Shown one piece after another: positions 16,303 to 20,153 of a DNA stretch of 37,931 bases. The stretch is from a virus. Both the position numbers and the translations under genes were made by a program. The notes beneath the pieces were generated by a model that worked only from the letters and a program-made list of their open reading frames with translations, was not told where the DNA came from and did no database searches. The stretch lies in IMG/VR virus record IMGVR_UViG_3300020187_000082, positions 1 to 37,931 of that record; one strand, given 5' to 3'. Every line of letters begins with the position of its first letter. Position 1 is the first letter of the stretch.

Positions 16303-18597
16303 ATGGCAGACGAAATAGATAAGAAAGCACAGGAACTTGCAGATAAACTAGGTAAAGCTTCTGAGGGGTTGAACAGACCTTTCAAAGGTCTAGTGGATAA
16401 TCTTGCAGAAGTAAACAAGGAGATTGCAATCTCCGCTGCAGATATTCGTAAGGATACTAGGGACACGTTCTCTGGCTTTCTATCTAAAAAGAAACTTGCC
16501 AAAGCAATGGAAGATTTTGACAAGACCGAGTTCGAAAAGAATAAGGCCAAGTCTACTGCCTCCACCGATGCAAGAGATAAACTTCTCAAAGAAGAACAAG
16601 CTGAAATCAATCGTAACAAGACACTCAATGAGATGAAACGTAAAGCTGCAGGAAAGCAGTTTGATATTGATAATGATATCACTCATGGAATTGAAGACCG
16701 TCTTCAGAAACAAAAAGAGATTGATGAGATTCAACAAGAGATTGATAAAAAGGAAACTGAAATCAAAAAGTTCCGTGCAGCCAAAATAGAAAAAGCAAAC
16801 AAAGAGCTTGAAGAAGCCGAAGAAGAGAGAATCAAGTTAGAAGAAAAATTTACGGAAGATATGAAAAAGGCATCTTCTAGTGAAAGGTTTGATAACTTCT
16901 CGGGTGCAATAAAAGACCTTACTGGTGGACTATTGGATATCGGTGGTATGCTTGATGATGTCACTAAGTTTGGTAACAACTTAAAAACTGTTGGGACTGA
17001 GTTTAAGAATTTCGGTAAATTCTTAGGTGATAAACTTGGTAATCCAGTAGATAAATTAAAAGACCTCTTTTGGGCCCTAGTCGCATCAGCAGGTGCATTC
17101 TTTACCACAATGAAAACTTCAGCAAGTGAAAAGATGAGTGCTATGGGTGAAAAATTCACAGCTGCAAAGGATAGTGTTACTAGTAAAGTTTCTAATGTAA
17201 AAAATAAAGTCGGAGAGAAGTTTCAACCTGTTAAAGATATGTTCTCTGAGAAAGCAAAACTTTTCCAAGGTAAGATGTCTGACTTAGGTAACACTATGAA
17301 GAACGGTGCAAAGACTATGGGCGGTAAAGGACTCAAAGCAATTAAGATGGCACCTAAGATGTTAATGAAAGGTGCAACAAGGTTTGTATCTCTACTTGCA
17401 CGAATCCCAGCAATGTTAGCTGCAATCCCAGCAATACTTGCATCACCGTTTGTACTAATCGGAGCTGGTGTTTTACTTCTTGCAGTTGGATTAGTTCTTA
17501 TATTCATGAAGTTCAAAGACCAAATCCTAGAAAAATTTGAAATGATGAAGACTAAGGTAACAGAAGTAGTTACCAACATTGTAGATGGTTTCCTAGAAGT
17601 CTGGCAGAAAGTAAAGGACTGGTTCTCTGATAAGGTGTTCGGTATCAAAAGTTTCTTAGGTCTAACCTCTGAAGAAGAAGAGGCAGAACATGCTAAGAAA
17701 GAAGTAATCAAAGAAAAGGAAAAGGAAAAGGAAAGACTTCAAGAAGAACAAAAAGAAATTGCCATGCAGGCTAAAGAAGCTGAAATTGATGCAAAATTAA
17801 AAGCAGAGTTCGGTGAAGATGCACTCAACTGGGGTTGGGGTAGAGGTGACAAAGAAGCAAAAGAGATGAAGAAACAGATGATGGAACAAGCAGAGGCTGA
17901 TGTTGACCAAGACATAGCAATGGATGCAATCTCATCTAAGGATTTACTGCAAGAAAGGAATGAATCTGAACAGGATTATTTCAATGTTCAAGATATCATG
18001 GATGCAAGACAACAAGAAGTTGAAAATAGAGTTAAATTCAGTAACTTAAAAATCAATGGTGAAGATGCAACCGAAGAACAGAAGAGAGAGTTCTATCAAG
18101 AAAAAGCAGACAAGGGTGAGTTAGATGGTCGATTTTTTGAGAACGGATTGAGTTTCGAAAACGGAACAAAAGGGGTAACCACTGAAGAGTTGCTAGAAAG
18201 ACAAGCAGCTGAAGTCCTAGATATTAATAGAGCTCAGAAAGAACTTGATACAAGAGAAGACTACATCCCAGCAAACGCTGGTGACCTTGCAACTCAACAA
18301 AGAAGAAATGAACTCCAAGGAAAACAAACAGATGATGAATTCTTTGATGAGGGTGAAGGTCTTACAGAGAAAGAGAGAATGGAACTGACTCGTTTAGAGA
18401 GAGACCAAGGTGATAGGATTAAAGACTCAGCAGACCGTGCTAAAGAAATGGGCCCCAAGAGACCCGACCCTAGTATTACATCTGTTGCACAACAAAACAC
18501 TAATAACAATGTAACCAACAATACGATATCTGCATCACCTAATCCTAGACCCACAGATAGTACTATTAATAGAACTGCAGTTGTAAATCAGAATTAG
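16303..18597 (+). CDS. Tail tape measure protein
   Basis: 764 residues. Long, lysine/glutamate-rich coiled-coils at both ends (about 60-200 and 460-600) flank a hydrophobic alanine-rich segment at about 362-402 (IPAMLAAIPAILASPFVLIGAGVLLLAVGLVLIF), the usual plan of a tape measure protein that is ejected and crosses the inner membrane. The C-terminus is Asn/Thr-rich. By the usual rule of about 1.5 angstrom per residue it would set a tail near 110 nm, as in T4-like phages. It follows gp26, the chaperone-like ORF and the membrane protein. It is the counterpart of T4 gp29 by position. Confidence 0.75.
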   Translation: MADEIDKKAQELADKLGKASEGLNRPFKGLVDNLAEVNKEIAISAADIRKDTRDTFSGFLSKKKLAKAMEDFDKTEFEKNKAKSTASTDARDKLLKEEQAEINRNKTLNEMKRKAAGKQFDIDNDITHGIEDRLQKQKEIDEIQQEIDKKETEIKKFRAAKIEKANKELEEAEEERIKLEEKFTEDMKKASSSERFDNFSGAIKDLTGGLLDIGGMLDDVTKFGNNLKTVGTEFKNFGKFLGDKLGNPVDKLKDLFWALVASAGAFFTTMKTSASEKMSAMGEKFTAAKDSVTSKVSNVKNKVGEKFQPVKDMFSEKAKLFQGKMSDLGNTMKNGAKTMGGKGLKAIKMAPKMLMKGATRFVSLLARIPAMLAAIPAILASPFVLIGAGVLLLAVGLVLIFMKFKDQILEKFEMMKTKVTEVVTNIVDGFLEVWQKVKDWFSDKVFGIKSFLGLTSEEEEAEHAKKEVIKEKEKEKERLQEEQKEIAMQAKEAEIDAKLKAEFGEDALNWGWGRGDKEAKEMKKQMMEQAEADVDQDIAMDAISSKDLLQERNESEQDYFNVQDIMDARQQEVENRVKFSNLKINGEDATEEQKREFYQEKADKGELDGRFFENGLSFENGTKGVTTEELLERQAAEVLDINRAQKELDTREDYIPANAGDLATQQRRNELQGKQTDDEFFDEGEGLTEKERMELTRLERDQGDRIKDSADRAKEMGPKRPDPSITSVAQQNTNNNVTNNTISASPNPRPTDSTINRTAVVNQN

Positions 18598-18818
18598 ATT
18601 AAGTCTGGGCCTCTAAGGATATCTGCCTTAGTTACCTTTCGATTGTATTTGGTTTTATCTCTTTGGACTTGAGTACGTCCGTGTGATGGTGTTTCCTTAC
18701 GAACCTTAACTACTGGTTTCTTCTTACCGAAGATTTTATCCCAGTTGTCAGCATATGCTGATTCGTCTGAATTCCTACGTTGTGAACCTTTGCCACCGTG
18801 CCATTGTTTGGAAGACAT
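18594..18818 (-). CDS. Small basic protein downstream of bS21
   Basis: 74 residues from the ATG at 18818, four bases after the bS21 stop; the bS21 stop region AGGTGA serves as its ribosome site. A longer form starting at 18863 would overlap bS21 by 41 nt and is less likely. It holds a HGGKGSQRR segment, then DESAYADNWDKIFGKKK, a motif common in short proteins of marine phages, and a lysine/arginine-rich tail. No known function. It ends tail-to-tail with the tape measure gene (4-nt overlap). Confidence 0.65.
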   Translation of the reverse strand: MSSKQWHGGKGSQRRNSDESAYADNWDKIFGKKKPVVKVRKETPSHGRTQVQRDKTKYNRKVTKADILRGPDLI

Positions 18819-18822
18819 GATA

Positions 18823-19056
18823 TCACCTAAATCCTCGTCTACCCATTGATGCTCTTTTTGCATCTAGTTTCTTACGTCTTTTTAGTTGTTGGTTCTTTTC
18901 GTTTTTGATAGTGTTAGGTTTGATATGATACTTCCTATCCCTACACTCTTGAACTATACCAGCTCTTTCACAATCCCTTTTAAATCTGCGAAGTAGTTGG
19001 TCGAACCCTTCTACGTTCCGATTCTTTGGATTTATTTTTGGTGTTACACTTGGCAT
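18823..19056 (-). CDS. rpsU: Ribosomal protein bS21
   Basis: 77 residues (E. coli bS21 is 71). It carries the family pattern EGFDQLLRRFKRDCERAGI, then KRRKKLDAKRA in the basic C-terminal helix, with a short phage-specific N-terminus (MPSVTPKINPKNRN). bS21 sits near the anti-Shine-Dalgarno on the 30S subunit and influences initiation. Phage copies are documented in marine viruses, including a SAR11 myophage. Because bS21 exchanges easily on ribosomes, a phage version could bias translation towards phage mRNAs. A weak AAGAGA ribosome site and a folded RNA element lie directly upstream. Confidence 0.92.
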   Translation of the reverse strand: MPSVTPKINPKNRNVEGFDQLLRRFKRDCERAGIVQECRDRKYHIKPNTIKNEKNQQLKRRKKLDAKRASMGRRGFR

Positions 19057-19065
19057 AATATTTCT

Positions 19066-19232
19066 CTTAAAAAATGTGAAGTCACCCCACGCCTTACAGC
19101 AACCCGTTCTTCACCGACCAATCCGCTATATGCTATTGACCTTTCCCTTACTGAGTACCCCCAATCTTTTTCCACGGTCTCAGTGATGCAGTCGTCTTTT
19201 TTCAAGGACACATTTTGAATATACACGACTGC
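19066..19232 (-). ncRNA. Structured RNA element upstream of bS21 (novel leader or small RNA)
   Basis: The gap between gp32 and bS21 is richer in G+C than its neighbours and contains four successive helices on the minus strand: P1 GCAGUCGU/ACGACUGC (19225-19232 with 19188-19195); P2 ACUGAG-ACC/GGU-CUCAGU with one bulged A (19176-19184 with 19150-19159); P3 GGUCAAU/AUUGGUC with two G-U pairs (19135-19141 with 19116-19122); P4 GUGAAG/CUUCAC (19109-19114 with 19076-19081), followed by a U6 tract. P1 to P3 are perfect or nearly so, too many for chance. P4 plus the U-run resembles a terminator just ahead of bS21. I cannot match it to a named RNA family. Confidence 0.6.
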
Positions 19233-19253
19233 CCCAAATAAGAAATCTAACTA

Positions 19254-20153
19254 CTAACTATCAGCAGCCAGTTTCTTAAAGTAGTCCATCGCATCATCTT
19301 CTTCTGCTTGAGGAGTAGATTCTGCTGATGCAACTACAGGTTCTTCTGCAACTGGAGACGTGTTAACATCTGACCATGGAAGTTCTTCCAAATCATCTGC
19401 AACTGACTCAGCTGTAGAGTTAGTTACTGCACCTGTTAATCCAAGAACTCTATCGAGTTTCTCTTTTAACTCTTCGTAAGATTTAAACTCACTTGGTGCA
19501 ATAATTCCACTTAAGCTATGTAGGTTGTTTACCACATCTACAAGCTTTTGCTCATCATCAAATAAAGGTGCTTGTGTGTCAAACTCTGATTTGTCATAGT
19601 TCCAGTAACCATCTACCTTTCTAATTTTAATCTTAAAGTTTGCACCTTCTTCTCTAAGGTCAAAAGGATTGATTGCTTTCTCATCTTCAAATGCTGGTGA
19701 GATTGCTTCCTTGAGTGCTTCAAAGATTTTTTTACCAAAACGGTACTTGAACACTTTACCTTCGTTAGCAGGATTTTTAGGGTCTGAGATAACAAGGATG
19801 TTAGACACATAGTGTAAACGTCTTTTCTGTTTACGTGCTTGGTCTTTGTTTGCCTCAACACCAGTATTCCATAACTGAGTATTGTATTCTGATACAGGGT
19901 CTTGTTTATTAAGAGTCGTTAAAGACTTCTCAATATACCAGCCACCTGGCCCTTGGAAACCGTGGTCGAAATATGATACCCATGGCATCTCTTCTCCCTC
20001 GGGGGTGGGTAAGAAACGAACTACAGCGTAACCGTTACCACTCTTATCGAGTTCGGGTTTCCACATAGTGTCGTCTGAGTAGGATTTTTTTTCTCCGCCT
20101 GTTGGGGAAGCTGATTCCATTGCAGCTCTTAGTTTATCTAAACTACTTGACAT
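19254..20153 (-). CDS. 32: Single-stranded DNA-binding protein gp32
   Basis: 299 residues (T4 gp32 is 301). Recognisable blocks are the N-terminal cooperativity region (SLDKLRAAMES), MWKPELDKSGNGYAVVRFLPTP, the WVSYFDHGFQGPGGWYIEKSLTT core, KRRLHYVSNILVISDP and VFKYRFGKKIF. The C-terminal 45 residues are very acidic, as needed for contacts with other replication proteins. The T4 zinc ligands are absent: the position of the CPVC motif reads DPVSEYN and the protein has no cysteine. The ribosome site AGGAG and a repeat-rich leader precede it; it is the last gene of the gp33-gp59 block. Confidence 0.94.
   Translation of the reverse strand: MSSSLDKLRAAMESASPTGGEKKSYSDDTMWKPELDKSGNGYAVVRFLPTPEGEEMPWVSYFDHGFQGPGGWYIEKSLTTLNKQDPVSEYNTQLWNTGVEANKDQARKQKRRLHYVSNILVISDPKNPANEGKVFKYRFGKKIFEALKEAISPAFEDEKAINPFDLREEGANFKIKIRKVDGYWNYDKSEFDTQAPLFDDEQKLVDVVNNLHSLSGIIAPSEFKSYEELKEKLDRVLGLTGAVTNSTAESVADDLEELPWSDVNTSPVAEEPVVASAESTPQAEEDDAMDYFKKLAADS

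Follow-up and report, generated by a model that had tools for sequence, protein, structure and literature searches.

A conserved structured RNA directly behind gp32 in marine T4-like phages matches no catalogued family and is probably a small viral RNA rather than a bS21 switch

In phage T4, autoregulation of gp32 involves a pseudoknot in the 5' leader that is linked to gene 32. The RNA described here is likewise a structure linked to gene 32, but it lies 3' of the gene and not 5' as in T4. GOLLD is linked with phages, and both GOLLD and ROOL are far larger than the phage RNA of about 165 nt. They resemble it in being structured noncoding RNAs of unknown function (parts of PMC12286853), but the phage RNA has no match in Rfam. 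The same difference separates it from manA, wcaG and PhotoRC-II, structured RNAs that occur in marine T4-like cyanophages; furthermore, manA occupies putative 5' UTRs and wcaG has a proposed role in regulating genes for exopolysaccharide or for high light, whereas the phage RNA comes after gp32 and the gene downstream of it varies (parts of PMC2864571 for the cyanophage RNAs). The remaining system is OLE, a structured noncoding RNA of Bacillota. OLE measures about 600 nt against about 165 nt for the phage RNA, which is genetically linked to the gene for the ribosomal protein bS21 (for OLE, here and below, parts of PMC12054373). OLE contains an anti-Shine-Dalgarno mimic where bS21 binds, whereas CCUCC occurs in 0 of the 81 distinct copies of the phage RNA; altering the mimic while keeping its pairing left bS21 binding to OLE intact (PMC12054373).

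The record analysed, IMGVR_UViG_3300020187_000082, consists of 37,931 bases of a T4-like phage, and this whole stretch is called the window below. Its minus strand carries, in this order, a late-transcription coactivator, an unknown ORF, a helicase loader, gp32, a gap, bS21, and a small unknown ORF. The gap holds the folded RNA, whose type is called class 1. The features are as follows.

19254..20153, minus strand: gp32 single-stranded-DNA-binding protein (Pfam gp32, E 9.9e-39), the constant upstream neighbour of the RNA
19057-19253, minus strand: gp32-bS21 gap, holding the folded RNA
19188..19235, minus strand: P1 with leading GGG and variable loop; 8 bp, arms 19232-19225 and 19195-19188
19150..19184, minus strand: P2, 9 bp with one bulged A, loop GUGGA...GGG; arms 19184-19176 and 19159-19150
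19142..19149, minus strand: J2/3, AAGGGAAA, unpaired and conserved; UAAGGG in 69 of 81 distinct class-1 RNAs
19116..19141, minus strand: P3, 7 bp with two G-U pairs, an inner 2-bp GC/GC step and a GCGG loop motif; arms 19141-19135 and 19122-19116
19076..19114, minus strand: P4, 6 bp (arms 19114-19109 and 19081-19076, then A, then U6) plus an R-C/G-Y step, inner GGG...GGGG and a 3-bp hairpin with GUAA loop
19069..19074, minus strand: U6 tail 3' of P4; U5 or longer in 36 of 81 relatives
18823..19056, minus strand, start at 19056: phage bS21 (rpsU; Pfam Ribosomal_S21, E 5.7e-13), the next gene here and elsewhere sometimes not

An earlier note on this DNA had drawn P1 with 8 bp, P2 with 9 bp and one bulge, P3 with 7 bp including two G-U pairs and P4 with 6 bp, and all four are present where drawn; as it had stated, P4 is also followed by U6 (19074-19069), and bS21 starts at 19056. 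We add to this first drawing that P4 goes on above an internal loop with the R-C/G-Y step and the small GUAA-loop hairpin. A terminator scan places a local 6-pair hairpin at 19090-19076, not P4 itself, in front of U6. The region is richer in GC, as had been remarked, with 45.9% (19066-19235) vs 37.8% for the window, a value reached by 0.9% of 170-nt stretches. The window contains no tRNA or tmRNA according to ARAGORN, whereas annotated tmRNA genes are found near the late-transcription coactivator gene in Mosig and Melnitz (L163, L164). An 89-aa ORF at 18594-18863 on the minus strand of the window is without Pfam or PHROG match; its relatives often come after bS21.

Covariation in homologous gaps, the check that the earlier note had proposed, confirms the predicted four-helix fold as real. 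Alignment A2 is a sequence-only MAFFT alignment of P2 to P4 in 39 sequences, with the structure hand-drawn from the same sequences. In A2, 94.8% of the cells pair, and 166 cells are doubly changed vs 43 in shuffles and 14-28 when the structure is slid; 18 pairs have double changes, the covariation score is 0.476 (slides 0.036-0.078), and none of 500 shuffles reaches any of the five measures. Alignment A3 consists of 100 matches (81 distinct) fitted to R1, the class-1 covariance model, and leans to the drawn structure because it was aligned by this model. With this bias, 97.5% of its pair cells pair in the 81 distinct sequences, 381 cells are doubly changed vs 96 in shuffles and 24-49 when slid, 21 pairs have double changes, and the score is 0.527. 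When column pairs are ranked by corrected mutual information, drawn pairs take all of the first 11 places.

The changes are distributed over the helices. Both sides have changed in 5 of the 9 pairs of P2 in A2 (6 of 9 in A3), in 6 of the 7 pairs of P3 (A3, with 99.5% of cells paired), and in 6 of the 8 pairs of P4 (A3), whose R-C/G-Y step is G-C in 51 and A-U in 30 of the 81 sequences of A3. P1 was scored separately: a helix of at least 7 bp is found in 80 of 82 sequences, with many different arms, vs 40% in mononucleotide shuffles, and its mean length is 9.8 bp vs 6.2 bp in shuffles. Among the 82 sequences checked no P1 helix was found in L113 and L257; in L113 the P2 loop is shortened as well. 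Conservation of at least 97% is seen in 36 columns of A3, 21 of which are unpaired. A mutual-information scan of A3 for pseudoknots detected no additional helix. Columns 75 and 171 of A3, the base after P2 and one in the P5 hairpin, are A-U in 78, U-A in 2 and C-G in 1 of 81 sequences, which is only suggestive of a possible long-range tertiary pair.

Folding energies are modest on the minus strand, with z = -1.84 (204 nt) and -2.79 (165 nt), and better on the plus strand (z = -3.44), so that energy alone would indicate the wrong strand; the 165-nt minimum-energy fold does not contain P3 and P4 as drawn. The alignment speaks for the coding strand, on which the earlier note had placed the fold: the 161 G-U cells against 13 A-C cells in A3 fit the minus strand.

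The earlier note could name no family for this RNA and considered it a candidate for an undescribed element, which the Rfam searches support. For the window, Rfam 15 gave nothing at gathering score and two matches outside the RNA (E 4.8 and 7.2); none was found at E 1 in 9 class-1 loci, and 4 loci of the divergent classes 2 and 2b yielded one snoRNA match (E 0.66) away from the RNA. The OLE covariance model likewise had no match in the window or in these class-1 and class-2/2b loci. A small peptide gene was rejected since RNA lengths span all three modulo-3 classes (17/35/29) and since the conserved spacer between CGGG and TGCTGTAA, which is 1 nt (44) or 2 nt (31), breaks any frame. An open frame across the RNA exists in 25 of 81 copies, commoner than in shuffles (7.7%), and most copies are without one. 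The AUG in the P1 loop was also dismissed as a conserved mini-ORF, as lengths and stops vary among relatives (by eye). Compared at the nucleotide level with named phages, the gap and bS21 gave six short matches (23-28 nt, E 2-5), and a literature search (open-access PMC, title and start of abstract) found no account of a structured RNA that follows gp32 or adjoins phage bS21. A cyanophage paper names Rfam families and, in the part of the text concerned, neither gp32 nor S21 (PMC9964418).

Relatives were collected with bS21 and gp32 as baits (80 IMG/VR loci each, some contigs in both), which together with the window provided 128 gp32-to-bS21 gaps, 70 of them different; 49 short gaps were aligned directly. 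Gaps of about 1 kb contain the same RNA followed by a gene of about 293-296 aa for an N6/N4 DNA methylase (N6_N4_Mtase, Pfam E 2.7e-23), for example in L074, L084, L127 and L307. IMG/VR was also scanned with two patterns, one for P4 and one for P2 plus J2/3, and counts from these scans are samples among the matches listed. The class-1 matches listed number 111 (loci L174 on, including L307; 68 distinct 200-nt stretches); these, like the 23 class-2 matches and the 54 matches of the second pattern, include near-identical contigs and contigs already among the bait-fetched loci. Directly upstream is gp32 in 109 of the 111 class-1 matches listed, the two misses being contigs that start less than 80 nt before the motif, and in 53 of the 54 matches listed for the second pattern, the last one being a cut contig. 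The GTDB genomes contain a single match, the 121-kb contig L307, also behind gp32. This lone MAG match would suggest a Bacteroidota host, which we doubt because a Shine-Dalgarno motif precedes 16 of 36 ORFs of the window vs 2 in an internal control.

Downstream neighbours vary. Among the 111 class-1 matches listed, the next gene is bS21 in 76 and the methylase in 34, and one contig ends after 61 nt. Where bS21 is next, it starts 50-88 nt from the start of the P4 motif, and the RNA can therefore lie in the bS21 mRNA; behind the methylase, bS21 follows in 27 of the 34 and the other 7 contigs end first. On the upstream side, the leading GGG is found 6-21 nt behind the gp32 stop in the distinct class-1 gaps, except in L113 (45 nt, without P1) and L128 (121 nt, with a divergent gp32 end). 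The 80 loci fetched by gp32 alone include 61 with the motifs at most 420 nt behind gp32, L091 (added by an R1 match) and L139 (cut); no motifs were found in the remaining 17 (L143-L159), of which L144 and L159 are cut.

A second class of the RNA, class 2, is divergent from class 1 and differs from it in P2 (23 loci, 15 distinct). Again gp32 is directly upstream, in 23 of 23 loci. None of the 23 has bS21 downstream, and 18 of them extend for at least 900 nt on that side; all 15 contigs that are long enough have bS21 upstream of gp32, about 2.6 kb (2.62 kb) before the motif, and the other 8 are too short. Across both classes, bS21 lies within about 2.7 kb, in three positions, at all loci with enough flank (103 class-1 matches listed, 15 class-2). 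In each of the 23 class-2 loci TATAAATA stands 156-162 nt ahead of the P4 motif, past the gp32 stop and in front of the RNA. We take TATAAATA to be a T4-type late-promoter motif; T4 late promoters stand shortly before ORFs. In class 2 (e.g. L284) it is often embedded in the inverted repeat GTTATA-AATAC-TATAAC (by eye). In L131, L135, L136, L138 and L141 the long ORF that comes after the RNA (383-434 aa) is on the opposite strand, and TATAAATA therefore seems to serve the RNA. Five class-2 loci were inspected for same-strand ORFs of at least 60 aa, and in all five the nearest one is at least 232 nt from TATAAATA or is not reached; smaller same-strand ORFs overlap and may be served instead. In class 1, TATAAATA occurs within 400 nt upstream of the motif in 0 of the 111 matches listed; L202 alone has one, between the RNA and bS21. 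The class-1 RNA would therefore rely on gp32 transcription or another promoter, and for this class a cis role is conceivable. Of the 5 TATAAATA sites in the window, 4 are located 5-29 nt before ORFs (11144, 26847, 6455, 34526), as is the case for T4 late promoters; the motif is not significantly enriched in the window (5 vs 3.05 expected; 20 of 100 shuffles reach 5).

Class 2b consists of L132, L133 and L140, with a small same-strand gene after the RNA in L132 and L140; the contig of L133 ends at the apparent start of this gene. The small ORF in L132 and L140 resembles the window ORF at 18594-18863. Cross-matches between the classes are weak. R1 finds the class-2 RNA in 7 of 8 sources in one search and in 8 of 18 in another (these 18 including 2b), and none of the 2b RNAs; its class-2 E-values are 0.0024-0.43 overall and 0.005-0.43 for the matches directly behind gp32 in L134-L138, L141 and L142, and off-target matches appear at E 1.9-4, two of them (E 3.4 and 4) in the search that gave these seven. 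Conversely R2, a P3-P4 model built from classes 2 and 2b, hits the RNA in 13 of 26 class-1 loci and misses it in the window and 12 others, with two weaker off-target matches (E 0.98 and 1.6) and nothing in the 23 loci labelled RNA-less. Common descent of class 1 and class 2 is likely and, given the weak cross-matches and the difference in P2, rests on position, the P3/P4 motifs and the gp32 tree.

This tree of 80 gp32 proteins unites classes 1, 2 and 2b (59 rows) on one side of a branch (100/99), against 21 rows labelled RNA-less. The RNA is present in 58 of the 59 rows of its clade; the exception, L139, was put in class 2b from gp32 alone and its contig ends before the RNA. Nineteen of the 21 RNA-less rows reach past gp32, and the other two, L144 and L159, end 81 and 22 nt behind it. 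RNA-less rows include HTVC008M, Mosig and Melnitz; R1 has no match on the whole records of these three and of AG-345-L05.

By computation, then, the fold is conserved, its place behind gp32 is constant, its carriers form a single group on the gp32 tree, and the position of bS21 is inconstant. We consider it moderately probable that the RNA represents an undescribed family of phage noncoding RNAs of about 165 nt behind gp32 that is cut from the gp32 transcript or made from a late promoter and acts in trans. Its carriers make up one large clade of uncultivated T4-like phages from marine samples, in which it comes right after gp32. In class 1, including the window, it would be transcribed with gp32 and then be freed, either through processing or because transcription stops near the U-rich tail; in class 2, TATAAATA would provide it with a late promoter of its own downstream of the gp32 stop. 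Late in infection it would then act in trans, most likely in complex with a protein that contacts the conserved unpaired G-rich segments (GUGGA...GGGG, AAGGGAAA, GCGG, CGGG...GGGG), which would be held in place by four helices of freely changing sequence. The structured, undescribed RNA of the earlier note is thus retained, and of the two roles offered there a small RNA from the gp32 transcript fits better than a bS21 leader.

The strict linkage with gp32, its constant upstream neighbour, also fits a role in cis for gp32, namely a 3' UTR element that shields or ends the gp32 message or mediates 3'-side regulation by gp32 or another protein. The short distance of the class-1 GGG to the gp32 stop (6-21 nt in distinct gaps, barring L113 and L128) is in line with this, as is the observation that RNA-less relatives often have a plain terminator behind gp32 (by eye): a hairpin with a T run is found less than 90 nt behind gp32 in HTVC008M, Mosig and AG-345-L05, and further down in Melnitz (by eye). 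Of six T4-like genomes, five have a predicted terminator after gene 32 (parts of PMC1524935). We nevertheless judge this alternative unlikely, if worth serious attention, since the TATAAATA of 23 of 23 class-2 loci would yield the RNA without gp32 and since the conserved unpaired segments exceed the needs of a stabiliser or terminator. P4 appears to be a weak terminator, with U5 or longer in only 36 of the 81 sequences.

A further proposal, for which we see a small chance, is that the RNA and phage bS21 form a ribonucleoprotein, or that the two of them target the host ribosome at its anti-Shine-Dalgarno region; in either case the virus would reprogram translation by means of an RNA in addition to a protein. 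One pointer is the presence of bS21 within about 2.7 kb at every class-1 and class-2 locus with enough flank (103 class-1 matches listed, 15 class-2). Bacterial 16S rRNA ends in CCUUA, with which the UAAGGG of J2/3 (69 of 81 distinct class-1 RNAs) can pair; against this pairing, class 2 has UGAGGAAAG and class 2b has neither segment. The bS21 of HTVC008M is incorporated into E. coli ribosomes, and expression of phage bS21 is late (parts of PMC9723584 and PMC6375957); a word search of the main texts of both papers did not find 'intergenic'. Against a partnership, HTVC008M, Mosig and Melnitz carry bS21 elsewhere (Pfam search) and have no R1 match, and phage bS21 therefore does not need the RNA; the window bS21 has no match at 1e-5 in the named phages. 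A complex of the RNA with phage bS21 is speculative, and the linkage of the two genes may be mere shared descent.

The earlier note had instead suggested a leader to which bS21 binds and thereby controls its own mRNA, with P4 as attenuator. The arrangement in 76 of the 111 class-1 matches listed, where bS21 is the next gene, would permit this, and bS21 binds the structured OLE RNA in Bacillota (parts of PMC12054373). It is nonetheless improbable, because for a large part of the family the methylase is next (34 of the 111 class-1 matches listed), bS21 has its own promoter, or bS21 is not downstream at all (0 of 18 class-2 loci with at least 900 nt). The RNA tracks gp32, not bS21, and is not part of the bS21 5' UTR throughout the family, as a ribosomal-protein leader would be; its P4 appears weak as a terminator. 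Among 44 distinct RNA-bS21 spacers, 7 contain a sigma-70-like promoter, which stands after the RNA and right before bS21. The -10 box of these spacers (L054, L056, L070, L107, L113, L123, L128) ends 6-8 nt before the bS21 ATG, and hence a nearly leaderless message without the RNA would arise; among seven hand-picked long spacers 6 pass a stricter promoter cut vs 266 of 7000 shuffles. A catalytic RNA, self-cleaving or of another kind, or a riboswitch that binds a ligand, in each case from a class outside Rfam, would suit the conserved unpaired core on sequence-free helices and is very improbable, given no Rfam match in the RNA and, for the riboswitch, no constant downstream gene.

The RNA is kept by evolution and is probably a small viral RNA, and its retention in 58 of the 59 rows of the clade points to a function that is important to these marine viruses. 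The covariance models are ready for searches of metatranscriptomes. The family also makes it possible to test directly whether phage-encoded bS21 has an RNA as its partner; if true, this would be the second bS21-bound regulatory RNA besides OLE.
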